Positions 5,272 to 59,011 of a stretch of 64,000 bases of DNA are shown in pieces. This DNA comes from Moorella sp. E308F (GTDB taxonomy: Bacteria > Bacillota > DSM-521 > Neomoorellales > Neomoorellaceae). The stretch spans positions 1-64,000 of the forward strand of contig NZ_BJKN01000004.1 in assembly GCF_006538365.1 (NCBI RefSeq), read 5' to 3'. The position numbers were made by a program, and so were the translations under genes. How positions within the stretch are numbered: the stretch's first letter is position 1; each line of letters opens with the position of its first letter. The notes below the pieces were generated by a model that was given only the letters and a program-made list of their open reading frames with translations, was not told where the DNA came from and searched no databases.

Positions 5272-5289
5272 TTTTTATCGTCCTCCTTG

Positions 5290-30001: not shown

Positions 30002-33000
30002 ATGACTGATCAAATCATAAGCGGAGAAGATTATTCTTTAAAGACACAGATATTAATGGATTTTTCTAGTGCAATTAAAGAAGCAGGAGCTTTTGCAGAT
30101 CAAGTTTCGGATATTGCTACTGCTTTTAGCAATATGTCAAGAGATGTAAAAAATATTAATCTTAAAGTGGCTGATTTAATTAAAGCGGAAATTACTAAGT
30201 GGAATGAGAGCGCGTTATTTGGTAATAAGTTTGATATTGGCAAGACTATTAAAGAAAAAGTGGAGAGGGCTATTGCAACTAATATTGCGAAACGTGATGT
30301 CACTATTACAGGTGGGGCGGGTGAACCGATTCAATTTGCTTTACGTGATAGTGACGTAAGGAAGATAAATACAAAAGTAACGAAAGCCATTCAAGAAGCT
30401 CTTTCTAAATTAGAAATTCAGCCCTTTAATTTACCTGCTTTTCAATTGACGGATCGCCATACAAAACAAATTCAAGCGGAATTTGTTAATAAATTATCGC
30501 AGGCGATAAATGAAGGCATAAATTTTGTTTGGGAGGGGGATAAAAAAAAGAGTTTTTCCCTGACAGTAACTTCGGAGAATATGCAGGCTATGCTGGACGC
30601 CTTTAAGACGAAGTTTTTGTCTTTAATTTCTAATCCTGCCTTTTTTACGTTTGCTGATGTTGAACCTGTAAAAATTGATGTCAGTAAAATGACTGCGGTG
30701 TTAAATAAGATAAGGGATTCTCTAGGTGATATAGATAAGCATTTAAATATTGATTTTGAAGAGTTGCGGAAGCTACCTAATATTGATAAGTCCCTAGCAA
30801 AATTTAGGGAGCATATTCAGATTGTAGTGGCGGAGATTGCTGATATAAATAAGAAAATCAGCGGTCTTTCTACTGGTGTTGATGTGGGCGGGCTCCAGCA
30901 GGTGGGCCAGCAGATTGCGACTTTACGGACGACAATTATTACTAAAATTGGGCAATTATTAAAGGAAATTACTCAACAGGTGGCGACTATACCCGCAGGC
31001 ACTATTGAACAGGCTAAGTACCAGGCGGCTATTGGCAATATTGGCGTGGTATTGAATAACTATGTCCTGGCTCAGATTGATGGGATTATGAAATCGCTGT
31101 TGACGGCGGCGGGGGCGCAACTTGTGAAAGTGCAGGGGAAGGATGTTTATGTAGCTGGTATGAAGCAGTTACAGGAGCGTTTGGTGGCCGCTACTAAGGA
31201 GGCTTTGAAGGGAATTGATTTTAGTAAGTTGGGGATAGATGTAGCCCCTCTACAAAAAATGTTGGATGATTGGAGTGATTCTATAGCTAAAGCCTTACAA
31301 GAGCGGGTGGTGGGGTCGGTAACAAAACTTACTGATGCAATTTTAAGGCTTCAAGGAAGTATAGAGATAAATGTATTTAATTTTATCAATGATTTGGAAA
31401 AGGGTGTGGAAGAATGGTTTAAAAGTCATTCTGATTATAGTGGAATGATACGAGGACAAGATATAGTTGATTATCTTATACCTCGTGTGCAACAAGGTAT
31501 TTTAGATATAATTACCAGTATGGTTCCTGTTTTTGATGCTGGGAAAAAGATACAGGTAACAATACCGTCTGAAGTAATAGAAAAAATCCAAGAAAGTATA
31601 TACGATGTAGTGTTGCAAGAAATAAAGTTAGTGCAAACTACTCCTAAACAGGGTACTAAAAGTGGCATCCAAGAGTTAATTAAGAAGGAGACGGAGAAAC
31701 TAGCGCAACTCCTTATAGAGAGAGCACGGAATATTTTTACGGCCTTAATAGAAGGGGTGTCGGCGGGGAGTTTTATGGTTCTTTCTGCCGAAGAACAGGC
31801 CCAGGTGCAGGCTGGTTTACAGAAGAGTGCGAGAGAAATTATTAATAGTTATCTAGTTGCTCTTCAGAGGGGTTTGGGGACACTAGTAGTTTCGCAGGAG
31901 GTTATCTATCACGTTCAGAGTGAAATGCAACAAGCCGTTGATAAGGCGGTGCAGAAGGTAAAGTTCGAGGTAGGTGAGTTTACTTTAGATATAAATAGCA
32001 TCATTAAAAAAGTGGTTAAAATTGTTGAGGATGCATTGAAGAAAAGTTTAGCTACTTTAGATGTAGGTGTGCCGCAGTGGAATTTAAATATTAATTCTCT
32101 TATTATCCAACCCATTCAACAGGGGTTGCGGCGTTTGTTTGTCGATTTAGGGAAAGAGATAAAGGAACAGTTGGCTATTTCTGTTAAAGGGGAAAATATG
32201 GTAGCACCCGTTAATTTTACGGAGTTATTAATGCCTGTGAATAAGGTTATTAATAATTATTTGCGTGATTATATTAAAACCGTTGTAGGGGTTATAAAAT
32301 CTACGGATAGGATGGCTTCTTTCCAGGCGGTAACTGGTGCTTTGCATCCTGAAGTGCGGCGGGCACTAGCGGCTGAAGCTGAAATGTCGGTGCGGGCGTT
32401 CCAGCGGGCTAATCCCCTGCTTCAGGGAGAAGAGTTCTTGCAAAAAATTATGCGTGAGAATATTAATGCTATCTTTAAGCGTTTCCATGCTGTTTTAACG
32501 AAGAGTGCTACGCAGATTGTAAAAGAATATCAGCAAGCATTGGGAGAAGTGGAAGTAAAGCCTAACTTGGAGGCAGTTTGGGACTTAACACGGAAAATGA
32601 CAGCTTTGCAAGACGCTATTGCGAAAAAAGTAAAGGAGTTGCTGGATGCTCAATTTAAGGCTTTAATGACTGAGATTAAGGAATTAAAGTTATACCCTGC
32701 TAGTATCGGTGCTTATGTTCCTCCTGCTTCTGTTAGACGCAGTGTTGAGAGTACAGCTCGTGGGATGGCTCGTTCTGTGAGTAGTGGACGGGGTGCTTTC
32801 CCTGTCCAGGAAAGGGTTTATGCGGCACCTTATTCCAATATTTTTAGTGAGGGCAGGGGCAGATCGCGTTATATTACTCCTGGTGGAGATACACGGACTT
32901 TTGTGGGTTCAGTAATCAATACGATGCGGTATATTACAGCAGGTATGTTAATGGGTATTCCGATGGGTCTGGTGTATAGTGCTTGGGAATCGGCGCGGCA

Positions 33001-36000
33001 GTTTGATTATGATTTGAAGAAGGCCGAAACTAATCTTTTAGCTAAAGAAGAGAATATTTTAAAATTGGCGGAAGAAAGGGTTAAACTTCGTTATGAGCAA
33101 GCGAGTCGTTTGGGGGATTATGGTATTACTGCCCGACAGTATAATAATGAGGTGGAACGCAGGCGTCTGGTAGAGGAAGAAGTGGCACGGATTCGTAATC
33201 TGGCGGGTCGTGGGGCGGTACGGCCTTTACAGGACATTGCTTTAAATTTCGGTATTAATCAAGAAGAGATGGGAAGAGTATGGGAAATTACCACTAGGCG
33301 GGTGGATAATCCTTATGAGGCTTTAAGTCTTTCTAGGAGTGCGGCGAAGATTTACGCCTATGAGCGAGAGGAATTAACGCCTGAAGAGGCCGCTAAAGGC
33401 ATGGAAGCAATTGCCTCTCAGTGGGGTTTGCGCGGGCAGGATATGGATCGTGTCGCTAATATGCTGATTAAAGCAGGTTTGTTATCTCAGGCTTCGGTGA
33501 AAGATTTGTTGCAGGCCCAGGCACGGTCTGGTATTACTTTTGCTCAAAATATGCCTGGGATTCCCAAGAGCGAAGCCTTGGCAACTTCCCTGGTGTTGCA
33601 GTCGCTTTTTACTCAAACTACGGCACGTACAGGTAGTGAGGCAGGCACTTTCTGGCGGACTGTTTTTGAAGCTCCTTTTAGAGCAAACGAAGCAAAGTTT
33701 TTGGAGCAAATGGCGGAGAGTAATCCTGCCCTGGCAATGCTGTCTCCATTTAAGAAAATTAAGCAGGATGATGGGACTTATAGGCGTATTCAAAAAACTG
33801 GGTTGGAGATGTTTTTAGATATTGTGGAGGCGGCTAGGAAATTGGACGATCAGAGTAGGATTGAATTATTAAATAAGGTGTATAAAACCAGGTATACGGC
33901 TAGTGCTGAGGCGATCCAGGCTTTAATAGAAGATATAGATAAATTGACAGGTTATCCTGACTTACGGTCGTACATTAAAGATGTGGAGAATGTTACTCCT
34001 GAAGAGGCTTTTCAGGCTATTGCAGGAAAGATGGATACCTATGAGTTTCAGCGTCAGCGTGCGTTGACTATGTGGCAAATATCAACGTTTGGAGTCTTTG
34101 AGAGTCTAAAACCACAGTTTAGTTCTTTAATAACTTATTTAACGGCTTTTTTACGGGTTATTCGAGATAACGCTGACAAAGTAGCTAGTGTATTGTCCAT
34201 TGTTAGTAAGATTGCAGTGGGGTTAGGTATAAAGTTTTTTATGGGTAAAGGTCAAAGTTTTGTAGATAGGTTTAATCAGCGACAGCTACAAAAATCCTAT
34301 GCTACCAATATGGGTTGGTTGGAAGAAGAAGCCTATATTCAAAGGCTTAAAAAGTTATCTGTAATGGATGAAATGGCTTATTGGGAACGGCAAGGGAGAG
34401 AAATTGAGATTGAAAAGACTAAGCTGGCTACTCCTATTAGTAAAGCTAAACGCCGACAAGATATTGTAAAAAATAGATTAGAGCAGGCTAAACATATTTA
34501 TAATGAAATGCTGGCGGAGGGGGCAGATTCTAGTCAATTGGCTTTACAGCAACAAAGAATAGATAAGTTGCAAAAAGCCTACGATCATTTTACGCAAACT
34601 TTGGATAAATATAATAATATAATGGCGGAATTGGAGGCGAAGCAGGCTGGTTATAATCGTCAAATAGAAAAATTAACTCAGGAGATGGCAGAAGTAGATA
34701 AGGAAGCGGTTGATTTACAAAAACGAATGGTTTTATTAGATACGGCTTTTGCGGATATGGGTTTGCGTGGTAAGCAGGTGATCTCTGCCTACCATCTTTT
34801 GAGTAAGGAATTTAAGACAGGAGCAATGGACATTGAGCGGTTTGAGAGAGCTTTACAGGAATTAGCAAGGGTATCAGGACTTTCAGAAGGGAGATTAAAT
34901 TCTTTACGCCAGGACGTGGATGCTCTGGTGAAGGAATTTAAAGAGGGCAAGATGACAGCCGAGGCTTTTTCCCGCGAGATCAGGCAGTTAGAGCGCAATT
35001 ACCGCCTCGGTGATTTGGGAGCGATTGAGGGTAAAGCGGTAGCTGAATTAAAGGGTGTTAATTTACTTGATGCTGTAATTGCAGGTTCTTTGTTTGGTAA
35101 ACAGATGCGCCAGCCGCAAACGGCCCAGGCCATGCTTGGAGAAATCGGAGGGCAGGCGGGTAGCGCATACGCTAAATACGCTGGTATTTTGGCGGGTATT
35201 CCCCTTCTGGCTAAGATGGGCGGCTTTTTGGGTAATTTGTTCGGTAAAGGTAAAGCTCTAGTTACGGGGGAAGGAGCTATTGCTAAAGGTATAGGAACGT
35301 TGGGTCGTGTTGGTGGTAAGATAGCGGGCAAGCTGAGTATTGGTGGTAAGTTTTTAGGTGGCCCCATAGGGTGGGGCCTAGCGGCGATGGAAATACTAGG
35401 TAATCCCCTAGCTTCCAGTATTTTATCTCCTGGGGAGCGGTTGCAGGAAGAGGCCAATCAAGAGGAGCAAATGATTAAACGTTTCCAGAATATAAGGGAT
35501 GCAGGCTGGTTGCCGAAGATTGTTTTTGGTGCTTTTGAGGCTATTAATACTCTTACGGGAGGTCTTTCGCGTCTATTTGGTGGTACTACCCCTTCTTTTA
35601 GTGAATATGGACAGGCGTGGAAGGCTCTGTTATCAGGGGAGGATGATTTACAAACTTACTTAACGGAACGGTTAGGAGTAGCGCAGAAAAAAGGGCGTGC
35701 GTTAGCTTTAATACAAGAAGAACAGGAGCGGTATTTACGTGAGAATCCGACATTAGATTTAAACGGTGATGGTTTGCGGGAAGATACTTCTAAGACAGAT
35801 TGGCGTGAGGTAACTTCCTTTGAAGAAGGACAGCAAATGCTGTCATTGATCAATGAACGGTTGAATATGAAACTGGCCGAGTTAAACTCGGAGTTTGAGA
35901 TTAAAAAATCGGAGTTACTGCGGGCTGGTTTTAGAGAAGATTCTGATCGTTTACGGAATTTAATGGCAGGGTTTCTTCGTTCTAATATTGAAGCGTTAGA

Positions 36001-36742
36001 GGAAGCAGTAAAACAGATTCAAGAAAGGAAGAGGTTATTAGAGGAAGCTAATCCTAACACTTATAAGGATAATGAGGCGTGGCAGGCCCTACATTTGGCG
36101 GAATTGCAACATCAGGCTACTATTGCTCAACAGCGGTTGCAACTTTCGCAGACAGAATTTTCCGAAGTAGATGAGATTACGAGTAAACTGGAACGGGAAC
36201 GTCAGCTTATTCAGGCGGAGTATAGTATTAAGCGAGGGAAAGCGATTTTAGGGGGAGCGCAGGAAGATTCGTGGACGGTTCGCTCTATAGAGCGGGCACA
36301 AGTAGAGCAGGAGAATAGGAAGATTGCTACAGCTATTACCGAATTGCAGAATTTAATGCAGAGGTATGCTGAAGGAGATGCGCGGCGGGAGCAGATATGG
36401 TTACAGATAAAACAATTACAAGCAGAATCTACAGATAATTTGGTTAAAATTAGAAAAGCTCTACCGTCTCAGGGTACATTTAATCTGCCCCCTGAAATTA
36501 AACCGTTAACCTACTGGGAGGCTAAAACCTTAACGAATAATTATCGTAATATGACTTACCGTCAAGGTGATGTGATTGTAAATCTAAATATTGATAATAT
36601 GAGTGGTTCACCTAGCGATGTTCAAAAAATATCAGAAGTGGTAGCGAAAACAATAAGAGATACCCAGGCTGGTTTGACTGGTTTGTTGTGGCAACAGGTG
36701 AAAAGCGGTATTGGCAGTAATTATCGGCCTTTACTACCGTAA
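30002..36742 (+). CDS. Tape-measure protein
   Basis: 2246 residues, mostly alpha-helical coiled coil, in the standard position after the chaperones. Hydrophobic stretches appear near residue 975 (YITAGMLMGIPMGLVYSAW), 1395 (VASVLSIVSKIAVGLGIKFF) and 1720 (YAGILAGIPLLAKMGGFLG); these may insert in the host membrane during DNA entry. No peptidase or lysozyme motif was seen. By the usual ruler of about 1.5 angstrom per residue it predicts a tail near 0.34 micrometre. Confidence 0.92.
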   Translation: MTDQIISGEDYSLKTQILMDFSSAIKEAGAFADQVSDIATAFSNMSRDVKNINLKVADLIKAEITKWNESALFGNKFDIGKTIKEKVERAIATNIAKRDVTITGGAGEPIQFALRDSDVRKINTKVTKAIQEALSKLEIQPFNLPAFQLTDRHTKQIQAEFVNKLSQAINEGINFVWEGDKKKSFSLTVTSENMQAMLDAFKTKFLSLISNPAFFTFADVEPVKIDVSKMTAVLNKIRDSLGDIDKHLNIDFEELRKLPNIDKSLAKFREHIQIVVAEIADINKKISGLSTGVDVGGLQQVGQQIATLRTTIITKIGQLLKEITQQVATIPAGTIEQAKYQAAIGNIGVVLNNYVLAQIDGIMKSLLTAAGAQLVKVQGKDVYVAGMKQLQERLVAATKEALKGIDFSKLGIDVAPLQKMLDDWSDSIAKALQERVVGSVTKLTDAILRLQGSIEINVFNFINDLEKGVEEWFKSHSDYSGMIRGQDIVDYLIPRVQQGILDIITSMVPVFDAGKKIQVTIPSEVIEKIQESIYDVVLQEIKLVQTTPKQGTKSGIQELIKKETEKLAQLLIERARNIFTALIEGVSAGSFMVLSAEEQAQVQAGLQKSAREIINSYLVALQRGLGTLVVSQEVIYHVQSEMQQAVDKAVQKVKFEVGEFTLDINSIIKKVVKIVEDALKKSLATLDVGVPQWNLNINSLIIQPIQQGLRRLFVDLGKEIKEQLAISVKGENMVAPVNFTELLMPVNKVINNYLRDYIKTVVGVIKSTDRMASFQAVTGALHPEVRRALAAEAEMSVRAFQRANPLLQGEEFLQKIMRENINAIFKRFHAVLTKSATQIVKEYQQALGEVEVKPNLEAVWDLTRKMTALQDAIAKKVKELLDAQFKALMTEIKELKLYPASIGAYVPPASVRRSVESTARGMARSVSSGRGAFPVQERVYAAPYSNIFSEGRGRSRYITPGGDTRTFVGSVINTMRYITAGMLMGIPMGLVYSAWESARQFDYDLKKAETNLLAKEENILKLAEERVKLRYEQASRLGDYGITARQYNNEVERRRLVEEEVARIRNLAGRGAVRPLQDIALNFGINQEEMGRVWEITTRRVDNPYEALSLSRSAAKIYAYEREELTPEEAAKGMEAIASQWGLRGQDMDRVANMLIKAGLLSQASVKDLLQAQARSGITFAQNMPGIPKSEALATSLVLQSLFTQTTARTGSEAGTFWRTVFEAPFRANEAKFLEQMAESNPALAMLSPFKKIKQDDGTYRRIQKTGLEMFLDIVEAARKLDDQSRIELLNKVYKTRYTASAEAIQALIEDIDKLTGYPDLRSYIKDVENVTPEEAFQAIAGKMDTYEFQRQRALTMWQISTFGVFESLKPQFSSLITYLTAFLRVIRDNADKVASVLSIVSKIAVGLGIKFFMGKGQSFVDRFNQRQLQKSYATNMGWLEEEAYIQRLKKLSVMDEMAYWERQGREIEIEKTKLATPISKAKRRQDIVKNRLEQAKHIYNEMLAEGADSSQLALQQQRIDKLQKAYDHFTQTLDKYNNIMAELEAKQAGYNRQIEKLTQEMAEVDKEAVDLQKRMVLLDTAFADMGLRGKQVISAYHLLSKEFKTGAMDIERFERALQELARVSGLSEGRLNSLRQDVDALVKEFKEGKMTAEAFSREIRQLERNYRLGDLGAIEGKAVAELKGVNLLDAVIAGSLFGKQMRQPQTAQAMLGEIGGQAGSAYAKYAGILAGIPLLAKMGGFLGNLFGKGKALVTGEGAIAKGIGTLGRVGGKIAGKLSIGGKFLGGPIGWGLAAMEILGNPLASSILSPGERLQEEANQEEQMIKRFQNIRDAGWLPKIVFGAFEAINTLTGGLSRLFGGTTPSFSEYGQAWKALLSGEDDLQTYLTERLGVAQKKGRALALIQEEQERYLRENPTLDLNGDGLREDTSKTDWREVTSFEEGQQMLSLINERLNMKLAELNSEFEIKKSELLRAGFREDSDRLRNLMAGFLRSNIEALEEAVKQIQERKRLLEEANPNTYKDNEAWQALHLAELQHQATIAQQRLQLSQTEFSEVDEITSKLERERQLIQAEYSIKRGKAILGGAQEDSWTVRSIERAQVEQENRKIATAITELQNLMQRYAEGDARREQIWLQIKQLQAESTDNLVKIRKALPSQGTFNLPPEIKPLTYWEAKTLTNNYRNMTYRQGDVIVNLNIDNMSGSPSDVQKISEVVAKTIRDTQAGLTGLLWQQVKSGIGSNYRPLLP

Positions 36743-36754
36743 GGAGGCTTTATT

Positions 36755-37366
36755 ATGACGCAACAATATCCATTTGGTTCGGCGAAGGATCGTTATAAAA
36801 AGAGGCTATTTGTAGATATGGGATTTGGTTATCAGGAGGTGGGGGCGCGATTAATTGAGCCCTATTCACCTCCTGTTCCTCAATTTAATGTTAAAGAGTT
36901 GACAGTTATTAATGGGCCTTCTCATATTCAAAATATGGGTATTTCTAGTTATAAAGCGCAGATAACGTTGTTGTTTGATGATAAAGAAGCCTATACTGAA
37001 TATCTCACTTATTGTGGTTGGACGCATAAATTTTATGATGAAAAGGGACATTTATACCTAGGTAGTGTTACTAGTATGAAGGTTTCGGTGTATGAAGCTA
37101 ATAGGCGGTATAAAGTAGAATTGGATATGATTTTAGTCAAAAAAGATGAATATGATCGTAAAAATAGGTTTAAGTACCAAGATATTGAAGGGCATTGGGC
37201 ACAGACGGAAATTGAAGAGATGGCTAATCTGGGTTTATTAGCAGTAATGACGAGGGATAACCAACCTATTCTTTATTTTCGACCTGATGCCTATGTAACC
37301 AGGGCTGAATTTATAGCCTTTTTAAATCGGACAAGGAGATTATTAGAACAAAGTATTAGGGAATAG
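36755..37366 (+). CDS. Distal-tail-like protein with C-terminal SLH domain
   Basis: 203 residues. Residues 1-130 are beta-rich, with ELTVINGPSHIQNMGISSYK and YKVELDMILVKKDEY, at the position of the Dit hub protein. Residues about 139-196 form an SLH module: KYQDIEGHWAQTEIEEMANL, then FRPDAYVTRAEFIAFLNR. SLH modules bind secondary cell-wall polymer in S-layer-bearing Gram-positive bacteria. The combination suggests the tail tip docks to the host wall. AAGGAGG precedes the ATG. Confidence 0.8.
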   Translation: MTQQYPFGSAKDRYKKRLFVDMGFGYQEVGARLIEPYSPPVPQFNVKELTVINGPSHIQNMGISSYKAQITLLFDDKEAYTEYLTYCGWTHKFYDEKGHLYLGSVTSMKVSVYEANRRYKVELDMILVKKDEYDRKNRFKYQDIEGHWAQTEIEEMANLGLLAVMTRDNQPILYFRPDAYVTRAEFIAFLNRTRRLLEQSIRE

Positions 37367-37387
37367 GTCTTTCCTACCTATTCCTTT

Positions 37388-37398
37388 ACCTATACTAA
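37388..37398 (+). promoter_or_regulatory. CTATACTA element before SLH tail gene
   Basis: ACCTATACTAA lies 17 bases before the GTG start and resembles the elements at 55984 and 57299. Confidence 0.3.
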
Positions 37399-37414
37399 AG
37401 GTGAGGTGATAGTC

Positions 37415-38800
37415 GTGAAAAAGTGGGTTGATGTTAATGAGGGTGACTGGTTTTATCAGGAAATTATGGAGGCATCGCGGATTGAATTAGAGGATGGTAA
37501 GCCATTTGTGTCAGGTATTCCTTATAATGCTTTTAAGGCGGGGGCTCCTTATATTTATGAAGAACATATAGCCACCGAGGGACAGAAGGTTTTTTCGTTA
37601 TCACAAAAAATAGTTCCCACGATAGATAATCCTTTATATGTCTTTATAGATGGGGTACAGACTGTATATGAGAAAGTAGAGGATAATGCTTCAGGGACTT
37701 CAGATGTGACTTTGTATGGGGCTCCTAGAGCGGGGGCGGTAGTGTCTTTTACTAGTTGGGGTATACCTGAGACTGATAAATTTGGTAAACCTACACCACC
37801 TTATACTGGTTATTATCCGAAGTATACTCTAAGTAGAGCTAGTAATTATGTTTATGATAAATTTAATCGGTATTATCAAGAGTATGTTTATGTTTTTGGT
37901 AGGTATTTGCGGCGGGCACCTGTTCCTGATGAGGAGTGGAGTGATCCTTCTATTTGGGAACAGGTAGTTCAAAAGTATATTGGTTATGACACAGATATTT
38001 ATTGTATAACCCCCACAGGGACAGTCTATATGCCGTATAATTTTAATAATGTAACTTGTACGATTGTTTATACAACACAAGAACCGTGGGGGTTAAAGCA
38101 GAATACTGAGCAGTTTAAGCCGACTTCTCCTATGGTTTATTATAATAATAGGTTTTTTCCTAATGCTTATATTACGAGAGCGGAGGCTTATGTTCTCATC
38201 AACCGTTTAAGGAAAACTTTTTATAGTCGTTTTACAGATTTAGAACCTCCTGGTTCTCGTTTGGAGCAGACGATTGTTGCTTATGAAGGGCAGACGGTTT
38301 TTAGGTTGAATGGTACTTATCCTGCGGGGAAAGAAAAGTTGCTAGTTAAAGTAAATGGTGTTAATAAAGAGGCTGGGGTAGATTATCAGGAAACGGATGC
38401 TCATACGGTTACTTTTAATACAGGTTTGCACGAAGGGGATCAGGTTTATTTCTTTTATGAGAAAACGGTAAGCACTAGGTTTGCGGATGTAGGGGTTCCT
38501 ACGAGTATGGTTATCCTAGGTACAGGAGAAGTTATTAAGGAAACAGATTGGTGGACGCAAGATATATTAGCGATGGAAGATGAGGTTATACGCAGTACGG
38601 GTCAACCTTTAATAAGCGGTATTTTATGTTCTTATTTTGATGCTAATGGCAATGTAGTTGTGGATGATATGTATAATCCTTTAGAGGGTACTAGCCAACC
38701 TAAGTTGATGTTTATGCCTGATTCTTTGTTGACACGGGCTGAAGCAGTTACTTTTTTAAATCGTTTTCGCAAGTGGGCGTTGGAGCGATTTAAGTATTAG
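37415..38800 (+). CDS. Tail-tip protein with split SLH modules
   Basis: 461 residues from the GTG at 37415 (AAGGTGAGGTG upstream). WVDVNEGDWFYQEIMEAS opens one SLH module, whose second half (FFPNAYITRAEAYVLINRLR) comes only after a large insert. A further module is RFADVGVP...ETDWWTQDILAM with MPDSLLTRAEAVTFLNRFR. Two inserts carry a fibre-type domain (EGQKVFSLSQ...VFIDGVQTVY and EGQTVFRLNG...VKVNGVNKEAG). Presumably binds the wall polymer of the host. Strong SLH signal; exact boundaries uncertain. Confidence 0.8.
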   Translation: MKKWVDVNEGDWFYQEIMEASRIELEDGKPFVSGIPYNAFKAGAPYIYEEHIATEGQKVFSLSQKIVPTIDNPLYVFIDGVQTVYEKVEDNASGTSDVTLYGAPRAGAVVSFTSWGIPETDKFGKPTPPYTGYYPKYTLSRASNYVYDKFNRYYQEYVYVFGRYLRRAPVPDEEWSDPSIWEQVVQKYIGYDTDIYCITPTGTVYMPYNFNNVTCTIVYTTQEPWGLKQNTEQFKPTSPMVYYNNRFFPNAYITRAEAYVLINRLRKTFYSRFTDLEPPGSRLEQTIVAYEGQTVFRLNGTYPAGKEKLLVKVNGVNKEAGVDYQETDAHTVTFNTGLHEGDQVYFFYEKTVSTRFADVGVPTSMVILGTGEVIKETDWWTQDILAMEDEVIRSTGQPLISGILCSYFDANGNVVVDDMYNPLEGTSQPKLMFMPDSLLTRAEAVTFLNRFRKWALERFKY

Positions 38801-38813
38801 GTGGTGAGTGAGG

Positions 38814-41800
38814 ATGCAACCCATATCAGAGGAATTAAGAAAAATATTGGCAAAGAGATTAAAGGTTAGTAGCTATGAGCGTCCTACTTACAGGGTAGAG
38901 GTAGATCGGTTAGTTTTTATACCTGGGCGGGTGGAAGAAATTCAATCTTTGGCTGAGGATTATCAATTAACAAAAGAAGTAGTACGGACATGGATTGATC
39001 CATCTTCCACTGTTTCTTCTTATATTACGACTGCGGAGGCGGTGTTTCCTCTCCCTGGGCGAACATTAAATGATGTTACCTGCGCTTTTGGGGCCAGGGG
39101 ATATAACGGGCATAGCGGCCTGGATATAGCGGCTGATGTGGGTGAGACGGTGGTGGCCGCCTGGGGTGGTAAGGTAAAGCGAATTGAACGCTGGGATTAT
39201 GAGTCTTACGGACATTGGGTGGAAATTTTGCATGAGGGTGGTATTATCACTCGTTATGCTCATTTAAGTGAGATTTTTGTTAATGTAGGAGATAATGTTA
39301 ATCAAGGTCAGGCTATAGGTAAAGCAGGTAATACAGGTAATGTATGGTTTAGTGGTCATAAGGTTACAGGTAGTTACAATGATCCAAATTCTGAGCGGGC
39401 GCGGGGGCTAGGTTCACACTTACATTTTGAAATATGTTTACCTAACGGTAAAGGTGATATTTATGCTGTAGACCCTGTTCCTTATTTAAATGGTAGCAAG
39501 AAATTATCTTTATCTTCAGGTAATACTGGTGATGGTGTAACTGTAGGGGAGACTTATACAGGTTTACCTGGGGAAGTACGGTTGGATGAACAGTTTGTAA
39601 AACGGGATTGGTACACTGATCCCCGTTACAATTTAGATGCTAATTTCCAAATTTATTCATCATATGACGGAGAGGTACAAAGGTTTGTCTTTGATCCTAA
39701 TACGGTTTCGGAAGATGTTACGGTAGGTTTTAATATTGAGGTGGATATGCAGAGAGCAGGGTTTATGGATTTAAGTTATATGGCTTCTTTGTCTGAGGGG
39801 GATCAGCTTAGAGTTTATGAAAATGGTAATTTAGTGCGGCGGGTGACGGAGTTTAGTGGGGTTGAAGAAGAGTTAAAGGGTATTGCTGTTCCCCAAGGGA
39901 AGAATATAATTAGAATTGAAGTTTTTTGGAAACGGGGTTCGCGGTTGCAAACTTTAGCTTTAAAACATATTCTTATTCAAGAATTAATTGTGCAAGCTCT
40001 AGCTAGAGGTGATAAAACAATAGATAATTTTGATCCGACGAGGGATTTGCCAGGGTCTTCTGTGGCTACTGGTTATTGGGATGTTATGACTATAGATAGT
40101 TTTGTGTTTAATGAGCAACCAGAAAAAGTAAGTTTGCAGGTAGGTCAATTTGTATATATGGATACTTTAACTTTGGATAATGTTCAGAGTATTGAAATAG
40201 ATAGTCAGTTTGATATGGAGGCGGCGGAGGCGCAAATAACGATTTCTAACCCTGATGGTTATTACAGTCCTGATTATAACCCTTATTTATTTCCTGAGTT
40301 ATATAAGGATTCGCCGTTCTCATATTGGACTAATGGTGGTTTTCATGTTGGGGTTTTAAGTGAAAATACCCCGATTCGGATTTATTTAGGTTATGGTATG
40401 AATTTAATGCGGGTGTTTACAGGATTAATTGATCGGGTAGACATGACTGCTGATGGGAATATGACAATATATTGTCGTGATAGGTATAAAAAGATAATGG
40501 ACAAAGTGCTAACGGAGACTAAGCAATATCCTCGTGAGATTGACCCCGCTAATCCGCTAACTAATGCCTCTTGGCGCGATCAGATTATTGCCGCCGCTAA
40601 AAAACATGCGGCGGCGGTTGGCGTCGATTATAAATTCTTATTAGCTATCGCACAACAAGAAACTGCGATGGGTACACAAGGATGGGGGCGGCCTGAGCAG
40701 GGAGGTTATGTTCTTGGCTATGGGTGTTATAGTTCTTCTTACGCTGATCCAGCTTATGCAGGAATTGAAAAGCAGATGTATTATGGAGCCAAACGTATGG
40801 TAGATGCTTTGCGGAGTCGAGGTTTTCAGGTAGATTCCTGGGATGATGTAGAATATTTTCGTTTAGGGGGAGATTTGGGAACAGGATATACCTGGACTTC
40901 AGATGAGAATTGGACTAATAATGTTTGGAGTATTTATAATGAAATAAAAGCTAATCCATCCCAGTGGGATACTAATTATACAGAAAGTGCTTCGGGTACA
41001 GATGATAGCCAGAAAACGGCTTGGCTAAAATCGGCTGTAGTGCAAGATTTAGTAGCCCATGCAGGGATGTTTGGTTGGCGGGCTACTGATGAGGATAGGC
41101 AGTATCCTGATGCAATTATTGAAGAGACTTATTTAATAGAGGTAGATCAAAAACATGGGTATGTTGTAAAGGCGGGGTCAAGTGAAGGAGAATTTATTAC
41201 GGTGCCTATTTCTTCTATACCCACCCCCCAGGGCTGGTTAAATCCCTTTGTAGAAGCCTATGGGAAAAAATTTGAGGCTTATCGTTACAAAGTATCGGAT
41301 TGTATTAATGAAGTAATTGGGGATCTTAATTATCGTTCTTATTGTGATCGTTACGGCACCTATCGCTTAGAACAGCTAAGATTGGATAAGCCTGTTGTGG
41401 CTGAATTTACCGAAAACGAGAATTTACTTACTATCGCAAAGACTGTGGATTTTTCGCGAGCACGTAGCCATTTAGTTATTATTGATGCTGATGGTCGCGC
41501 GGAAAATTTTATTGATAAGGAGATTTTATTGGAGTTAAAAGGAGAGTTGCGGACTGCGGTAATTAGCGTGGGGTGGGCAAAATCTTCGGAAGCGAAAAAA
41601 CAAGTAGCATTACGGGCCTTTTTTGACATGAAGCGGTTGTGCCGTACTTTACAGGTATCTATAGTTGGAAATCCAGCCTTAGATATTTTAGATCGTATAT
41701 TAGTAGTGGATAAACATACTACTACTCGTTCAGTCTATACTATTAAAGGTATTAGGACTAGTTTTTCTAAGGATACAGGTTATATTCAAATTATTGATTT

Positions 41801-41834
41801 AATGTGGTCTGCCGCTGATGGGACGGTGGTATAA
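38814..41834 (+). CDS. Tail hub protein with M23 peptidase and glycosidase-like domain
   Basis: 1006 residues from the ATG at 38814. Residues about 75-225 are a zinc M23 endopeptidase (GHSGLD near 99-104, HLHFE near 202-206). Residues about 445-560 resemble the baseplate hub fold (VQSIEIDSQFDMEAAEAQIT, RIYLGYGMNLMRVFTGLIDR). Residues about 590-710 have FLLAIAQQETAMGTQGWG, a lysozyme/glucosaminidase-like helix with a candidate catalytic Glu. The hub fold resumes after this insert. It would cut both peptide and glycan of peptidoglycan during entry. It overlaps the next gene by one base. Confidence 0.85.
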   Translation: MQPISEELRKILAKRLKVSSYERPTYRVEVDRLVFIPGRVEEIQSLAEDYQLTKEVVRTWIDPSSTVSSYITTAEAVFPLPGRTLNDVTCAFGARGYNGHSGLDIAADVGETVVAAWGGKVKRIERWDYESYGHWVEILHEGGIITRYAHLSEIFVNVGDNVNQGQAIGKAGNTGNVWFSGHKVTGSYNDPNSERARGLGSHLHFEICLPNGKGDIYAVDPVPYLNGSKKLSLSSGNTGDGVTVGETYTGLPGEVRLDEQFVKRDWYTDPRYNLDANFQIYSSYDGEVQRFVFDPNTVSEDVTVGFNIEVDMQRAGFMDLSYMASLSEGDQLRVYENGNLVRRVTEFSGVEEELKGIAVPQGKNIIRIEVFWKRGSRLQTLALKHILIQELIVQALARGDKTIDNFDPTRDLPGSSVATGYWDVMTIDSFVFNEQPEKVSLQVGQFVYMDTLTLDNVQSIEIDSQFDMEAAEAQITISNPDGYYSPDYNPYLFPELYKDSPFSYWTNGGFHVGVLSENTPIRIYLGYGMNLMRVFTGLIDRVDMTADGNMTIYCRDRYKKIMDKVLTETKQYPREIDPANPLTNASWRDQIIAAAKKHAAAVGVDYKFLLAIAQQETAMGTQGWGRPEQGGYVLGYGCYSSSYADPAYAGIEKQMYYGAKRMVDALRSRGFQVDSWDDVEYFRLGGDLGTGYTWTSDENWTNNVWSIYNEIKANPSQWDTNYTESASGTDDSQKTAWLKSAVVQDLVAHAGMFGWRATDEDRQYPDAIIEETYLIEVDQKHGYVVKAGSSEGEFITVPISSIPTPQGWLNPFVEAYGKKFEAYRYKVSDCINEVIGDLNYRSYCDRYGTYRLEQLRLDKPVVAEFTENENLLTIAKTVDFSRARSHLVIIDADGRAENFIDKEILLELKGELRTAVISVGWAKSSEAKKQVALRAFFDMKRLCRTLQVSIVGNPALDILDRILVVDKHTTTRSVYTIKGIRTSFSKDTGYIQIIDLMWSAADGTVV

Positions 41835-42675: not shown

Positions 42676-44463
42676 TTGCCAGCAGATCAAGTGGCTTGGG
42701 TAGAAGGGGCGGCAGAGGCGGAGAATATTATTACTGCTTTAGTGGATAGCATCGTTAGTGCTACTATACCTTATGAAATAAATAAATGGCAGAAGGTTTT
42801 TAGTAGTGATGCGTATATATGGGTAACGTATAATGAAAATTTTAGAGATAATATACAAGGTATATATAAACATACTGATGGGAATTTATATCCCGTATAT
42901 AAGGTGGGTACAATAAATACTATTAGTAGTAATAATTTAGAATTATGCGATACAGATGGCTATGTGTGGGAAGTAAATTCAAATAATGAAAGGACTGGTA
43001 AAAAGTTTCAGGTAAAAGCTGTTACTTATGTGGATGCGAATGGGGTTTCTCACACTTTACAGGTAACGGGACTGTTGTTAGTAAATGTACTTGATTCTAC
43101 GGAACCGACGGTGGGGGCTAGGTGTTATATTGTTGAGCAGGTACGGCAGGAATTGGATGGAAGTTATAAAGCTGATCCAGAATGGAATGAATTTAAGATT
43201 GTGGCAGAAATGCCTTCTGATTGGAATTATTTACTAACGAGAGATCGGGTACTTTTGTATAATTATTATGGTTCGTATACTTATTTATATAAACCTCCTG
43301 TTTATAGATTTACTGAGAGATATTATACTGCGGATATAAATATTAGTGATAAGGTAGAAGTTTTAAAAATTACTCCTGATCCACCTACAGGATTAACAGC
43401 TAAGAATTTTTATGTAATGTTTAAACATCCTATTGGGCAATATAATTATTTTGATGTTTTATATGGAGAGGGTTTTTTAGGCACGCCTAGTAGCGGCGAT
43501 CCAACTTTAACTTATAAAGATATTTGTGATGTGACGACAGTAGGAAAAGGGAAAACTCCCGTAATTATAGATCAGAAAAAAGCCGAGGCTATGTATAAGC
43601 AGTGGAATGATCCTCAACAAGAAAAGGTTTTTGTGCCGCCTTCTTTTTCCTGGGAGGTGCGATATGGAAGGGAAGTAGTAAGTCCTCCTGCTCACTATTT
43701 TTATGGTTGTAATACTAGTGTGTCAGGGATCGGTTTAGTGTCAAGACGACCAGAGTATCAAGTTAATTATTATCTTTCTATAAATAATAGAAGAATAGCT
43801 ATGATAATTGAAGGCGACCCTGTGCCTGATAGAGAGGGATATTACAGAAGTTTTGGTTATATCGGGCCTATAATTTCTTTTAGTAGTAATGATTACACCA
43901 ATAACTTTGCCGTTACGGTAGGGATGGGGGAATTAAATAAAGACAAGACAGGGTTTGTTTTACAGGACATTGATCAAAATAATAATCCTTTATATACACA
44001 ATATGGGGATTATGCTTCTAATGGTATGTATTCAGTATCTATGTTAAGTACAAAAAGTGGTAGTACGTTATTTCAAGCATTTTATCCATCTTTTAACACT
44101 CCATTACCAAATTATCATGGCGGTTCAATTCCTTCTGGCTTGTATAATCTATTGATAGCGGAAGATTTTTTACAGGCTTCTAGGTGGACAGGAAAATTTC
44201 ATGCGAGCCCAATTTATTTATATCATCAATATGAAGGGTATAGAGGGTATTTGGATGGTGTTTTAGCAATTAGTCCTTACAATCTTACTCATTTAGATGA
44301 ACTAGAGTTTGATACAGGAGAACCTAAAGATCCTGCTAATCCAGAAGTTGGGAATTGGATAGAGGTTTATAAGTTTGTGCGGTTGTTAAGTCCTATTAAT
44401 TTTATGTTGCGATCAGCAAATCCCAATGATATGATGCTTGCAATTTTAAAAGAGGTCAGGTAG
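42676..44463 (+). CDS. Tail protein, paralogue of the next gene
   Basis: 595 residues from a TTG start behind AAGGGGGGCGG. Its last 300 residues match the next protein: a shared FQAF/QKHYP region, ASRWTGKFHASPIYLYHQYE, GYRGYLDGV and a terminal MMLAILKEVR. The N-terminal 250 residues are unique. Probably a fibre or baseplate periphery protein. No enzyme motif. Confidence 0.75.
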   Translation: MPADQVAWVEGAAEAENIITALVDSIVSATIPYEINKWQKVFSSDAYIWVTYNENFRDNIQGIYKHTDGNLYPVYKVGTINTISSNNLELCDTDGYVWEVNSNNERTGKKFQVKAVTYVDANGVSHTLQVTGLLLVNVLDSTEPTVGARCYIVEQVRQELDGSYKADPEWNEFKIVAEMPSDWNYLLTRDRVLLYNYYGSYTYLYKPPVYRFTERYYTADINISDKVEVLKITPDPPTGLTAKNFYVMFKHPIGQYNYFDVLYGEGFLGTPSSGDPTLTYKDICDVTTVGKGKTPVIIDQKKAEAMYKQWNDPQQEKVFVPPSFSWEVRYGREVVSPPAHYFYGCNTSVSGIGLVSRRPEYQVNYYLSINNRRIAMIIEGDPVPDREGYYRSFGYIGPIISFSSNDYTNNFAVTVGMGELNKDKTGFVLQDIDQNNNPLYTQYGDYASNGMYSVSMLSTKSGSTLFQAFYPSFNTPLPNYHGGSIPSGLYNLLIAEDFLQASRWTGKFHASPIYLYHQYEGYRGYLDGVLAISPYNLTHLDELEFDTGEPKDPANPEVGNWIEVYKFVRLLSPINFMLRSANPNDMMLAILKEVR

Positions 44464-44477
44464 GGAGGTAATAATTT

Positions 44478-45557
44478 ATGGCAGATTTTAAATATGTAGA
44501 AACAATTACAAAGTCCCAGGATTTACTTAACACTATTAAAGAAATTTTAACTTTTACTAGTTACCCTTTTGACGCTATGCACGGAGAAACAGAGGTAGCT
44601 AATACTTGGATTATAAAAGAAGAAATTACTGATGTAGCAACAGGTAAAATAAAAGAATTAACAGTACAAGGAAAGACAGCTATTGGTTCAACTACTGTAA
44701 GAAATAAAGATTTTTATGTAAGATTTAAGTTAAATGGTTTTAGTGATGTAAGTAAACATAGTTCAATGACTGTTCAACTTTTAGATGAGTTTAATCCTAC
44801 TAATAATAGTTATGGTGTTAACGGCTATCCTGTGCTTTATGAGTGGGCGCAAGAGAATTATTCTAATTCAGATCGGGATTTTAATTCTCCAGTATATTTA
44901 TACGCAACTATAAGTAATAATAGGATTGCTATGGTTCTAGTAGCTGATCCTGCTATTAATTTTAATGATTATCGAAAATCATTCCTTTATATTGGGGCAA
45001 TTCAACCATTTAAGTTCAATGAGGATGATGTAGATGGTAATATTTTGTTGACGGCGGGGGCGTATAGAAAAGAGCCTAGTTATACTGAAATAGCTATTAA
45101 TAATCCTGATTATTATTTTGGTGAGTTTACAGCTACGGGCAATAATAATTTCCAAATGTTAAAAACAAAAACAGGTATTTTATTTCAAAAGCATTATCCT
45201 GCTTTTATCACTCAGGCCCCTCCCCCTGGAAGTGCTTATGTTGATTCTCAAGTAGGGGATACTGGCGTAAAATTAGAATCACAAGGATTTCAAGCCTCTC
45301 GGTGGACAGGTAAGTATCATATGAGCCCGATTTATGTATACCATCCTTATGAAGGGTATCGCGGTCAATTAGATGGATGTGTGGCCGTTACTAAACATAA
45401 TATTCTTCATCTGGATGAGTTAGTGGTAGATGTAGAAGGGAAGCCGTGGACACAGGAAGTATATCGTTTTTATGATATAAATACTGAGCAATGTTTTACA
45501 AAACATTCAGCGAATATAAATATGGGGTTGGCGGTATTAAAAGAAGTACGGTATTAA
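44478..45557 (+). CDS. Tail protein, paralogue of the previous gene
   Basis: 359 residues behind AGGGAGG. It shares ASRWTGKYHMSPIYVYHPYE, GYRGQLDGC and the terminal MGLAVLKEVRY with its upstream neighbour, so the two arose by tandem duplication. The shared core is probably the receptor- or structure-forming domain. Confidence 0.75.
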   Translation: MADFKYVETITKSQDLLNTIKEILTFTSYPFDAMHGETEVANTWIIKEEITDVATGKIKELTVQGKTAIGSTTVRNKDFYVRFKLNGFSDVSKHSSMTVQLLDEFNPTNNSYGVNGYPVLYEWAQENYSNSDRDFNSPVYLYATISNNRIAMVLVADPAINFNDYRKSFLYIGAIQPFKFNEDDVDGNILLTAGAYRKEPSYTEIAINNPDYYFGEFTATGNNNFQMLKTKTGILFQKHYPAFITQAPPPGSAYVDSQVGDTGVKLESQGFQASRWTGKYHMSPIYVYHPYEGYRGQLDGCVAVTKHNILHLDELVVDVEGKPWTQEVYRFYDINTEQCFTKHSANINMGLAVLKEVRY

Positions 45558-45612: not shown

Positions 45613-45629
45613 GTTGTGGGGTGAGAGAG

Positions 45630-47654
45630 TTGTCACTTATGACTATTTCTAATGTATATAACTGTAGAGTGTTAGATTTAAATCAATGTCGAGAGACTTT
45701 TTCAGTTGTCGTAGCTATTTATAATAATTTCCATCAAGATAGTTATTATTTTAAATATATACCTTATAGCAGATATAGTAGTATTGTGATGATGGATTAT
45801 CTTTTGGGGAGGAAGGAAATTGTTGATGGTTCATTAATGGCGGAAGTTGCGGCGGTATTAAAAACTGATCTTCCTGGACAAGAAATAGTGTTAATAACAG
45901 GAGATAAGCAGGATATAATCTCAGAGATTACTTTGATAGATGTTGGTTATAAAGAAAGTCAGTCTACTAGTGAGGTATTAGAAGGGTGGGGAGTTAGAGA
46001 ACCTTTATCGGTTGGTGAGGTAAAAAAGAATTTTTTAACTGGTTATGTAGAGGAAGAGAGTGCTATAAGCAATGATTTTGTAACTGGATTGCTTATAATT
46101 CATAAGCATCCTTTAACTATTGATAGGGATTTTCTTTCTTATTATCGTTATGATAGTCACGATTTAATAATAAATTTTAAGTCTGTGGAGGGGCAATCTC
46201 TTAAACGAGATTTAATTGTAACTAGGGATCTTATTTCTTTTGATAGAAAAATAATGCGTGATTTAAACCTAACTAATGACGTAAAGTCGAGGCGATTTAC
46301 CTTAAAGGAAATTGTTCCTAGTTTTTTCATTTCAGGGGGACGTGAAAAAGATAAGAATTTATTTATTGTCGATACGGTCAACGGTGAGCGGTGGTTAATA
46401 AATGGTAAGATAATACCTGTAGAGTTTTTAAAGGGTGGGAGACAGGACGGAGGCCATTTTTTATATGTGCCTGACCATCTTTTAGGTGGTTTTTTATATC
46501 GCATGGCTGTCCTTTTAGAAGGAGTATTGGGTACTAAAAGTAGTTTTAATGGGATAGTGGAGGCAGGTTGGAAGGAAGGCATATCTGGGGGAAAAGGAGT
46601 GTTTGCTGATATTAAAGCTCTTTTAGGTAAGAAGGAAGATGAATATGGAGCAACCCTTTTATACGAACAGGAATTTAGTATTTTAGATAGGGTAAGATTA
46701 GGGTTTGTGGAAGAGGTTATGAAAAAATTGGCGGAGGTAGATAATCAAAAAGCGGCTGTTTCTTTGGTGGATTTGTTGTTGACGGAACGTATATGGCAAG
46801 GATTGGCAGAAGGGGATTTTGATATTATCACAGCAATTCTAGAAAAAGGAAGAAAGGCTCTTATAAATAAAGAGGTTATAACAGGAGTTTCAGAGGAAAG
46901 GTATGCTAAGACAAATATAATTATTCCTGTAGCTTTAAGACAGGAGCTACCGTCAATTATTTACAGTTCTACAGTGGCAGAAAAAGATCCTTTGCCTCTA
47001 ATAGAAGAAAAAGGGTTAATAGCTCTCAAAAAGCCAGGGGAGGCTTCTGAAATTAAACTAGGGTTAGGACAAGGCCTAGTTTATGATTATACTAATGATA
47101 TAGTTGATTTAGGAATGAATCCTGAATTTTGGGTAGGCGGGTTTGGTGTACCTGAAGAGTATAATCCGCTTGATCCTTTAAATCCTTATTATCCGTGGGC
47201 TGATGAAGTTTTTCGCATTGATCAAGGTATTTGGCAACCTGTGGAGGCGGAAGGATGGGAATATGATCCTACTACTAGAGGTTTTATTAATAGCTCGCAG
47301 ATAGAAAGATGTGGATTAGTGTATAGGGATATAAATAGTGATGGTTATATTTTCTGGACTAGTTTTAAAGTAACGGGTTCAGGAGATGATGGTGTAGGAA
47401 TTATTTTTAATTACGTTGATGAAAATAATTATTATAAATTTATTATTAATGGTGGAGATGCAGATTATAGCCTGAGTATGGCGAAACCGATGCAGTTGTA
47501 TAAAGTAATAAGTGGGGTTACGGTGCCCGTTGGGTCGCCGATGGAACCCTTCCCTTGGATAAGGGATAGATGGTATACAATTAAAGTGATCGTAAATGAT
47601 AATCGTATTAGTCTTTATGTAAATAATAAACTAGAGTATGATTTTGTAGAGTAG
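45630..47654 (+). CDS. Tail fibre protein with C-terminal lectin-like domain
   Basis: About 674 residues. A TTG start at 45630 with GGGGTGAG upstream is chosen; a GTG at 45621 and an ATG at 45639 are alternatives. Most of the protein is unassigned. Residues about 540-675 (WTSFKVTGSGDDGVGIIFNY ... WYTIKVIVNDNRISLYVNN) resemble a concanavalin-A/laminin-G-like sugar-binding fold. The domain seems cut short at its end. Confidence 0.7.
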   Translation: MSLMTISNVYNCRVLDLNQCRETFSVVVAIYNNFHQDSYYFKYIPYSRYSSIVMMDYLLGRKEIVDGSLMAEVAAVLKTDLPGQEIVLITGDKQDIISEITLIDVGYKESQSTSEVLEGWGVREPLSVGEVKKNFLTGYVEEESAISNDFVTGLLIIHKHPLTIDRDFLSYYRYDSHDLIINFKSVEGQSLKRDLIVTRDLISFDRKIMRDLNLTNDVKSRRFTLKEIVPSFFISGGREKDKNLFIVDTVNGERWLINGKIIPVEFLKGGRQDGGHFLYVPDHLLGGFLYRMAVLLEGVLGTKSSFNGIVEAGWKEGISGGKGVFADIKALLGKKEDEYGATLLYEQEFSILDRVRLGFVEEVMKKLAEVDNQKAAVSLVDLLLTERIWQGLAEGDFDIITAILEKGRKALINKEVITGVSEERYAKTNIIIPVALRQELPSIIYSSTVAEKDPLPLIEEKGLIALKKPGEASEIKLGLGQGLVYDYTNDIVDLGMNPEFWVGGFGVPEEYNPLDPLNPYYPWADEVFRIDQGIWQPVEAEGWEYDPTTRGFINSSQIERCGLVYRDINSDGYIFWTSFKVTGSGDDGVGIIFNYVDENNYYKFIINGGDADYSLSMAKPMQLYKVISGVTVPVGSPMEPFPWIRDRWYTIKVIVNDNRISLYVNNKLEYDFVE

Positions 47655-47666
47655 GGGGTAATTTAG

Positions 47667-50600
47667 GTGTCTAAAACCTTTGGTATCCTTACAGAAGGAC
47701 AAAAAGATGTAATGTTTGCCAATATGGGAGCGGCTTTAATTAATAATGATGCAATAAATAATCCTGGTAATCCTGTTGGCCCTAATTTTCCAAGGGCTAT
47801 AGGACGTTTGCCTGGGTATCAGAATCCCATTTTAGGTGATCCTGGGCGGGGGCGTATTGGACGTTGGCAGTTTGTTAAGTATGATTCTTTACAGAATGTT
47901 ATTGATCAGGTTATAGAGCATTATGTAGAAAATAAGGATTGGTATAGTAGGGTGCGGTGTCGTGAGGCATTGTGGAATATGTATCGTCGCTTAGAGTGGT
48001 GGGTGCGGCAACAGGTAGATCCAAGTAAAAATGATTATCAACGAGCTTTGCTTTATATAAAAGATTGTATAGCCAAGATCCTTGATCCTGGAGAAATGGA
48101 GTTAAAGGAAGTATTTGAGGAGTATTTTAATGATCAAAATAATATATCTTCTCAAGTAGTGACTTCTCCTGGGTGGGAGTGGGAAGATTTATGGACTACT
48201 TATAATGGGGGTTCTGGAGACGGTGTAATGATAGTTCGTAATAAAGAGGGGGCTTATACTTTAGATGTTACAGGTATTTCTCTCCCTCGTGGGGGAAAGG
48301 TATTATTTGAATATGGTGGTGCATTTAAGGGTAATGATAAGATAGAGTTAATTGTAAACGGTAAAAGTATGTGGACAGGCAACACTTCTACTCGTACAGC
48401 CAGGGGTATTGATGTGGAAGTAGAGCTTCCTCCTAATACCAGTGAGCTAAAGTGGGTTTATACTTGCGGTTTTTCTTTAGAGGAACATTTTGGCTGGGTA
48501 GATAGTATTAGGATATTTTCTAATGAGTACGCTTATGGGGCTGATTTTAGCACCGAATTAGATGCGGGGCTTACTTATAGTGACGGTTGGTATGATGATA
48601 AGGGCGCGGCCACGGTTACAGTGGCCCCCTCCACTACGGAAACTATTACTAAATCTTTTGCTTTTTTGAGTAAGGGTTATGTTATTTTCAGCTTCGCGGC
48701 TAGTTTAGGGGCGGGAGGGAGAATTTATCTAAAAATAGATGGCGATGAGGTTTGGTCTTATAGTCAAACAGGAGGTAGTGATTTAAGTTTTAGGGATGTG
48801 CGAATTAATGTAGCTCCAGGATTTCATGATTTTGAGTGGGGGGTAGTAGGGGGGTCAGTTCCGAGTACAGTCAGAATAAAAAATATTGAAATGGTGGAGT
48901 TAGTAAGTAATGAGGAAATAACAAAAATGACTCCTTACTGTCCTGCGCCTTATTTTCATTATTTTGATGCTGATTATTTTAATCATTTTGATGGAAGCAT
49001 TATTGAGCGGCCTACTTTTGATATGCGGACTTTACCGCTCTCAAATGATTTCCCTGCATTTTTTAGGTGGGTATCTTCTACAGAAGATCAAGAATGGGTA
49101 GTAGTTCATTCGGTAGGGGCTAATGAGCAAGCAGGTACAGAAAATATTTTAAAATTAGATTTAGGGATATTATCTTTTGGTAATTCTTCTAAGATCACTT
49201 TTAATTGGCGTTTTAAACAGAGGGGTTTTATTCGGTTTAAGTATTTAGCTAGTGTGGATAAAGGTAATGGTTTGGTTTTCTTTATTAATGGTGAACAAGT
49301 GGGGGGCGAGTGGAGCCAGAGTAACGATTGGCAAGAAGTTAGTTTTAATGTATATCCTGGACAAACTTATAAATTTGATTGGTTGGTACGCAAGCAGTCG
49401 GCTAAGGATTGGGGTTATAATGCTGTTTATATAAAGGATATTGAGTGTGTGGAGACTATTAGAACGGCAGATCCTCCTACTCCGCCAGATTTTGATACTT
49501 TAGGAACGAAGGCATTAGAGGATGGACGTTATGAGTGGGTGACTTACTCGAAACAATCGGTGGTAAGAAGTAGGATGGGGGGTGATCAGCCTCTTGAAGA
49601 AGCTAGGGTCAGAAAGCTAGTATTTAATTTAGATAATGAATGTGATGGGGAGATTTCTTATTCTTACAAGTTGGATACAGAAACACCTTTTCCTGAGCAT
49701 ACACAGGAAAACATCTTTTCAGATAACTTTCAGACACCGAATCAGCACGGAGAAAGTGTTCATGGTAGTTCAGTTGATGCTCAATATGATTCTAATTGGG
49801 TTTTAAATGGAGAGGAGTCGACTGCAACTGCGGATGGGGCAAAGATTGTTTATAAGATAAAGGTTGCTCCTGAAGCAACATTAGATTTACATGGTATATT
49901 TGAACTTGAACCACCAGATCGGGTTATTGATCATTATGAGGAACAGTTAGTTCCTGTCGCTTTTTCTGGTAGCAGTCGTTGGGTGGCAGACGGTAGCTGT
50001 TACACGATTAATAATATTACAGCAGGGATTTGGAGCATGTCTACTTCAGTTAATATGCCTAATGATGGCTATTTTGAATTTGATTTTAGTCACGATTTGC
50101 GGCCTACGGAAAAGTTTCGGGTGGTTGTAAATGGGATAGTTGTTTTGGATTCTAAGGGTTTAAGGGCAGGAGATCATATTCGTATTAACCTTAAAGCAGG
50201 TAATAATCAAATTGAATTTAAGATTATTGATTCTTATACAGAACAGCCACTCCATGAAGATTATAGCGTTACTTATAATTATGGTAATTATAGTAGTGGG
50301 GAACCTCAGCATTTTGTAACTCAGTTGGGAAATAAAGTGGAATTAACTCGTTATTGGGATGTGGGGGACGGAAGAGCTTATACAAATCGTGATGGAGATT
50401 ATATTATATATAATATTTCTCTTAATCCTGGTGCTAAATTCAGTTTGCATGAAAACGCTATTTTCCATACGGCTCCAGTGTATGAGGGGGAAGGTAGAGA
50501 AATCTTTAGAGAAGATTTTAATATTAGGGGAGGAGTACATTCTCCAGCTATAAGTTTTAGCGGTCATTGGGAATGGGTAGATTTATGGGCCGAAGAATTT

Positions 50601-58983: not shown

Positions 58984-59011
58984 TCCAATACAATGGAAGT
59001 GATATAAATGG
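58984..59011 (+). promoter_or_regulatory. Repeated CCAATACAATGG leader (copy 2)
   Basis: CCAATACAATGG (58985-58996) sits 11 bases before the ATG at 59008, the same distance as in copy 1. Confidence 0.45.

Follow-up and report, generated by a model that had tools for sequence, protein, structure and literature searches.

The window analysed here comprises 64,000 nucleotides of Moorella sp. E308F (positions 1 to 64,000 of the forward strand of contig NZ_BJKN01000004.1, NCBI RefSeq assembly GCF_006538365.1). The whole contig is 103,282 bases long and carries phage genes for a terminase, a portal, a major head protein, tail proteins and an integrase; the last of these is a tyrosine integrase at 61335–62186 on the reverse strand (-). 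The phage forms a contig of its own (G000:C4), and a search of the 103,282 bases for a terminal repeat found none. Its G+C content is 37.5%, compared with 44–65% in the host loci that were read. The contig could be a plasmid prophage or may be a misplaced contig. The left arm contains two adjacent genes (4234–6651, -), one encoding a class-II glutamine amidotransferase domain and the other an Amidoligase_2 domain together with a LIM-like zinc domain.

The tail genes of interest lie on the forward strand (+). The tape measure protein (30002–36742, +; 2246 aa; Pfam PhageMin_Tail, 4.4e-10) is followed by two consecutive proteins, here termed P1 (36755–37366, +; 203 aa) and P2 (37406–38800, +; 464 aa), and these by the tail hub (38808–41834, +; 1008 aa), which has an M23 peptidase domain at residues 101–210 (Pfam Peptidase_M23, 1.2e-22). 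P1 occupies the Dit position and ends in a single C-terminal S-layer-homology (SLH) module, the type with which bacteria fasten their own surface coat to a wall sugar; the protein matches PHROG 32188 (phrog_32188) at 4.8e-43 over residues 1–202. P2 consists of a split SLH module, beta modules and a further SLH module and matches PHROG 29574 (phrog_29574) at 1.3e-37 in two stretches, of which the best covers residues 4–279. Both PHROGs are without an assigned function. Further along the tail region, two consecutive virion proteins (42676–44463 and 44478–45557, +) both match PHROG 11431 and look like paralogues, and past the tail genes a 582-residue protein with a CBM96 carbohydrate-binding domain (59008–60756, +) is a candidate second adhesin.

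The first-pass annotation had described three TRAE-type SLH signatures in these two proteins, and its coordinates match exactly. The motifs lie at residues 182–185 of P1 and at residues 257–260 and 443–446 of P2. SLH1 (37169–37354, +; P1 residues 139–200; TRAE at 37298–37309) was assigned from Pfam, from hhalign and from a match to Sap. SLH2 is divided into a first half (37418–37540, +; P2 residues 5–45), placed by alignment position and hhalign, in which Trp15 of P2 corresponds to SLH-Trp13 and Gly37 to SLH-Gly29, and a second half (38141–38233, +; P2 residues 246–276; TRAE at 38174–38185) with a predicted helix at 258–276. Between the halves lies an insert of about 200 residues (37541–38140, +). 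The splitting of one module by a large insert, also described in that annotation, holds and is conserved in the aligned homologues; fibre-type beta strands are predicted in the insert, and Foldseek alignments to fibre proteins are weak. A second beta module (38252–38461, +; P2 residues 283–352), identified by alignment and predicted strands, precedes SLH3 (38468–38794, +; P2 residues 355–463; TRAE at 38732–38743), which contains hairpin insertions and was assigned from predicted helices and hhalign.

SLH1 was recognized by the Pfam SLH profile (PF00395) at E = 4e-6 and 27.2 bits, the cut-off being 20.8. P2 alone reached 16.1 bits, under the same 20.8 cut-off, and SLH2 and SLH3 stayed under it even after splicing, so that a plain Pfam search upholds the first module and misses the other two. 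The modules were therefore compared one by one with hhalign, using a phage-family profile for each module against 47 SLH rows taken from bacterial proteins of the host genome and its relatives. The resulting probabilities were 98.9% for SLH1, 94.8% for spliced SLH2 and 97.1% for SLH3 with its hairpin removed; a control of 200 random splices of the insert gave a maximum of 5.3%. Among the P1 homologues, 34 of 36 match Pfam SLH at E <= 0.01. Queries of the PDB by phmmer with either protein returned nothing useful; the P1-family profile retrieved Bacillus anthracis Sap at E = 3.5e-7.

Structures of both proteins were predicted with AlphaFold2 (mean pLDDT 91 for P2 and 74.5 for P1). Helices are predicted at residues 150–158 and 183–202 of P1 and at residues 17–23 and 258–276 and 384–390 and 444–463 of P2, so that each of the three modules has a short helix past the conserved Trp and a long core helix that begins at TRAE. 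In SpaA and Sap the short and long SLH helices lie at equivalent places (PMC6081394). That the signatures arose by chance or mark an unrelated helical repeat is hardly credible: this would agree with the position of P2 beneath the Pfam cut-off, but the module profiles score far above random splices, the motifs are kept across about 60 loci, helices are predicted at the SLH positions and the P1 profile finds Sap. Chance occurrence of TRAE was rejected by the splice control and had already been refuted for SLH1. We regard it as near-certain that all three are true SLH modules.

The N-terminal domain of P1 (36755–37159, +; residues 1–135) has a tail-tube/distal-tail fold according to Foldseek, with matches to the monocin tip, the lambda tube and tip, the E217 baseplate and the lactococcal p2 baseplate at probabilities of 0.9–1.0 but TM-scores of only 0.3–0.45. 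The gene lies between those of the tape measure and the hub, and the N-terminal fold is tube-like; there is thus a strong case that P1 is a Dit-like protein placed at the tail tip. Dit proteins with added carbohydrate-binding modules are known. P1 resembles them in its tube-like N-terminal domain, its Dit position and a potentially sugar-binding module at the C-terminus, and differs in that this module is an SLH module. For P2, Foldseek gave weak alignments to T7-like adaptor and half-fibre proteins; the search with the whole protein is dominated by the beta modules and is therefore no test of SLH2 or SLH3.

The arrangement of one SLH module in the first protein and two in the second was found in about 60 loci, mostly in phages and prophages of Brevibacillus and Paenibacillus. 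Relatives of P1 and P2 occur in Brevibacillus phages Jenst and SecTim467, in Bacillus phage EZ-2018a, in 36 bacterial genomes (Brevibacillus, Paenibacillus, Aneurinibacillus, Bacillus, Anaerovirgula, Desulfocucumis and one metagenome bin), in IMG/VR contigs, some of which are identical to phages of the other sets, and on one Paenibacillus peoriae plasmid. A single-sequence search of IMG/VR with P2 gave no match; an alignment-based search found P2 relatives there. When annotated phages were surveyed by means of an SLH consensus, Jenst itself was missed; the count is thus too low and cannot serve as an estimate of rarity. The gene order tape measure–P1–P2–hub recurs in the loci of relatives that were read, and in the aligned relatives, Jenst included, P1 has one module and P2 has two, with SLH2 split. 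An exception is the P2 relative of an IMG/VR contig (IMGVR_UViG_3300017973_000001; L088, 409–1878), whose two TRAE motifs have decayed to ERWR and DKAS. In an Anaerovirgula-type prophage (L019, 8637–9522) a stretch of about 880 bases, which holds a small ORF, separates the P1 gene from that of P2; elsewhere the two are adjacent.

Jenst gp155/gp154/gp153 (NC_028805) lie in the same tape measure–P1–P2–M23 hub block, as do the corresponding genes of SecTim467 and EZ-2018a, and gp155 is 39.7% identical to P1. Jenst differs from the window in having an SLH3 without Gly29 and in lacking the beta module between SLH2 and SLH3, which by alignment is missing from its whole clade. RefSeq names gp155 'S-layer homology domain-containing protein'. 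The P1 relative of Jenst carries a different label in GenBank, 'putative glycoside hydrolase family 18' (KT151955 JENST_36), which was rejected, as Pfam finds SLH only.

In SpaA the main ligand pocket draws Arg43 from SLH1, Gly29 from SLH2 and Trp13 from SLH3, Gly29 serving a backbone flip that the ligand requires (PMC6081394). In an alignment of 53 phage rows, Arg43 of SLH1 is invariant, 47 rows retain G at Gly29 of SLH2, and a single row departs from W or F at Trp13 of SLH3. Gly29 is absent from SLH1 throughout; in SLH3 it is present in the clade of the window and absent from the Jenst clade. The modules of the window accordingly have Trp and Arg in all three and Gly29 in SLH2 and SLH3 only, the same pattern as in Paenibacillus alvei SlhA, which was inferred to have two working pockets (PMC6081394). 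The Anaerovirgula phages (L019/L035) count against a sugar-binding pocket: their hosts have csaB, yet Gly29 of SLH2 is replaced by Ser, though SLH3 keeps Gly29.

The three-SLH anchors of Sap, SpaA and SlhA share with the phage proteins three modules with Trp13 and TRAE, and Gly29 in two of the three. There a single host surface protein carries the modules in tandem, whereas in the phage they are split 1+2 over two proteins and one of them is opened by an insert. The first-pass annotation saw the three signatures but not that they make up one set divided over two proteins, which is of greater interest. Judged from residue correspondence, the SpaA rule would assign one residue of the main pocket to P1 and two to P2; taken together with the 1+2 split, such a rule would mean that the main pocket forms only if P1 and P2 join.

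The pyruvyl transferase CsaB makes the SLH ligand, and its gene was sought in the hosts. The genome of the window has csaB (337 bits) and 28 SLH matches, P1 itself among them. Over the 36 host genomes csaB exceeds the cut-off in 33, compared with 215 of 299 sampled genomes in the comparison set; this association of the family with csaB is judged to be confounded by taxonomy. Two hosts were set aside from the comparison below: a metagenome bin whose sole SLH match is the phage protein (G007), and a genome with 117 SLH matches in which csaB is broken into several frames (L045).

In B. pumilus no csaB exceeds the cut-off, and apart from the phage protein nothing matches SLH; genome G431 gave neither a csaB hit over the cut-off nor an SLH match. 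The phage contig of G431 and the IMG/VR contig of L106 are both 123,902 bases long. In the phages of B. pumilus and G431, Gly29 of SLH2 has become Pro, the motif of SLH3 reads TKAE and that of SLH1 reads SRAQ or TRAQ; in the B. pumilus phage the Arg of the SLH2 TRAE is changed to Lys as well. A sister phage of the same clade and of similar branch length (L052), in csaB-positive B. chungangensis, keeps all of the residues. Ligand sites changed at four of seven positions in the B. pumilus phage against six of 62 other conserved sites (p = 0.007), at three of seven against nine of 62 in L106 (p = 0.095), which is less clear, and at none of seven against seven of 62 in L052. The decay of the pocket in hosts that lack csaB is one evolutionary event, or at most two. 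These phages still have the SLH fold and the SLH1 Arg. Retention of the fold suggests a structural part for the modules, and decay of the pocket suggests a sugar-binding part in the other phages.

The reading that we favour, and that is probably correct, is that P1 and P2 form a composite two-protein SLH spindle at the tail tip with pyruvylated wall polymer as its ligand. The Dit-like P1 ring would end in arms formed by SLH1, each joining SLH2 and SLH3 of P2 in a three-prong spindle of the kind found in S-layer proteins. Each spindle would fix P2 to P1, and so to the tail, and would bind the pyruvylated end sugar of the secondary cell wall polymer of the host; once bound, it would hold the M23-bearing hub at the peptidoglycan. 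Since the wall polymer sits under the S-layer, an SLH spindle is more likely to act as a wall-level second receptor than in first contact, for which the large proteins encoded downstream (45621–52973) may serve. The two-protein spindle, its binding of sugar and its use as a second receptor are inferences; binding of wall polymer through such a spindle is likely. Binding of the tail to wall polymer in the manner of the host S-layer, as the first-pass annotation had proposed, is plausible and has indirect support, in that the ligand residues are kept, nearly all hosts have csaB and the pocket has decayed where csaB is lacking. A narrower proposal, that the pocket is completed only at the P1–P2 interface, so that a single joint serves both tail-tip assembly and recognition of the host wall, is more tentative and falls somewhat short of an even chance.

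The structural part could also be the only one, the modules acting as an assembly clamp that, through the SLH tendency to trimerize, fixes P2 to the Dit-like ring as an adhesin platform, with no role for sugar. The fold and the SLH1 Arg that persist in phages of hosts without csaB and SLH proteins would fit this, as would trimerization of an SLH endolysin through its SLH domain (PMC12285257); such a clamp by itself would leave unexplained why Gly29 of SLH2 is so widely kept and disappears chiefly from phages whose hosts lack csaB, and why the ligand sites of the B. pumilus phage changed more than other conserved sites, and we consider it unlikely, although it is the strongest competitor. Lys in the motifs of the phages from csaB-lacking hosts preserves a positive charge, so that their ligand may have changed rather than been lost. 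Extended to the whole family, this would mean that the modules bind the wall through another ligand, either a different anionic sugar or peptidoglycan; the SLH domain of the endolysin LysBT1 has been reported on Gram-negative cell surfaces too (PMC12285257). The presence of csaB in almost all hosts and the retention of the classic ligand residues make this improbable, more so than a clamp, and favour the composite spindle on pyruvylated polymer.

Use of SLH by a phage protein has a precedent in LysBT1, an SLH endolysin of a Brevibacillus thermoruber prophage in which host binding needs the Arg of TRAE (PMC12285257). It differs from P1 and P2, which are tail parts, in being a lysis enzyme with one SLH module that forms homotrimers. 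According to the 2025 paper on LysBT1, no other SLH endolysin had previously been reported (PMC12285257). Amidase or endolysin genes that overlap SLH matches were also seen in Moorella phage MTATph1 (L026, 14428–15171) and Paenibacillus phage Pd_22F (MZ092003, 28161–28274). Infection by AP50c requires csaB (PMC3545897), and so does infection by Thrax1/2 (PMC9703825). These phages thus resemble the proposed system in depending on csaB for infection, and differ in that their authors invoke S-layer proteins or an intact S-layer (PMC3545897, PMC9703825); with P1 and P2 as protein queries, the phage collection yielded no phages of the AP50c or Thrax1/2 type. The SLH label of Jenst gp155 in RefSeq and the published SLH endolysin are already known. 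The open-access papers searched, which leave most subscription papers outside and so give weak evidence of novelty, yielded no paper on SLH modules in tail tips.

If the composite spindle is right, the phage exploits the anchor of the host's own coat as a device for recognition of the wall, through a binding site shared by two tail proteins, and PHROGs 32188 and 29574 gain a testable role. Its target would be a polymer modification whose loss would cost the host its S-layer, and the spindle would provide one molecular route to csaB-dependent infection.
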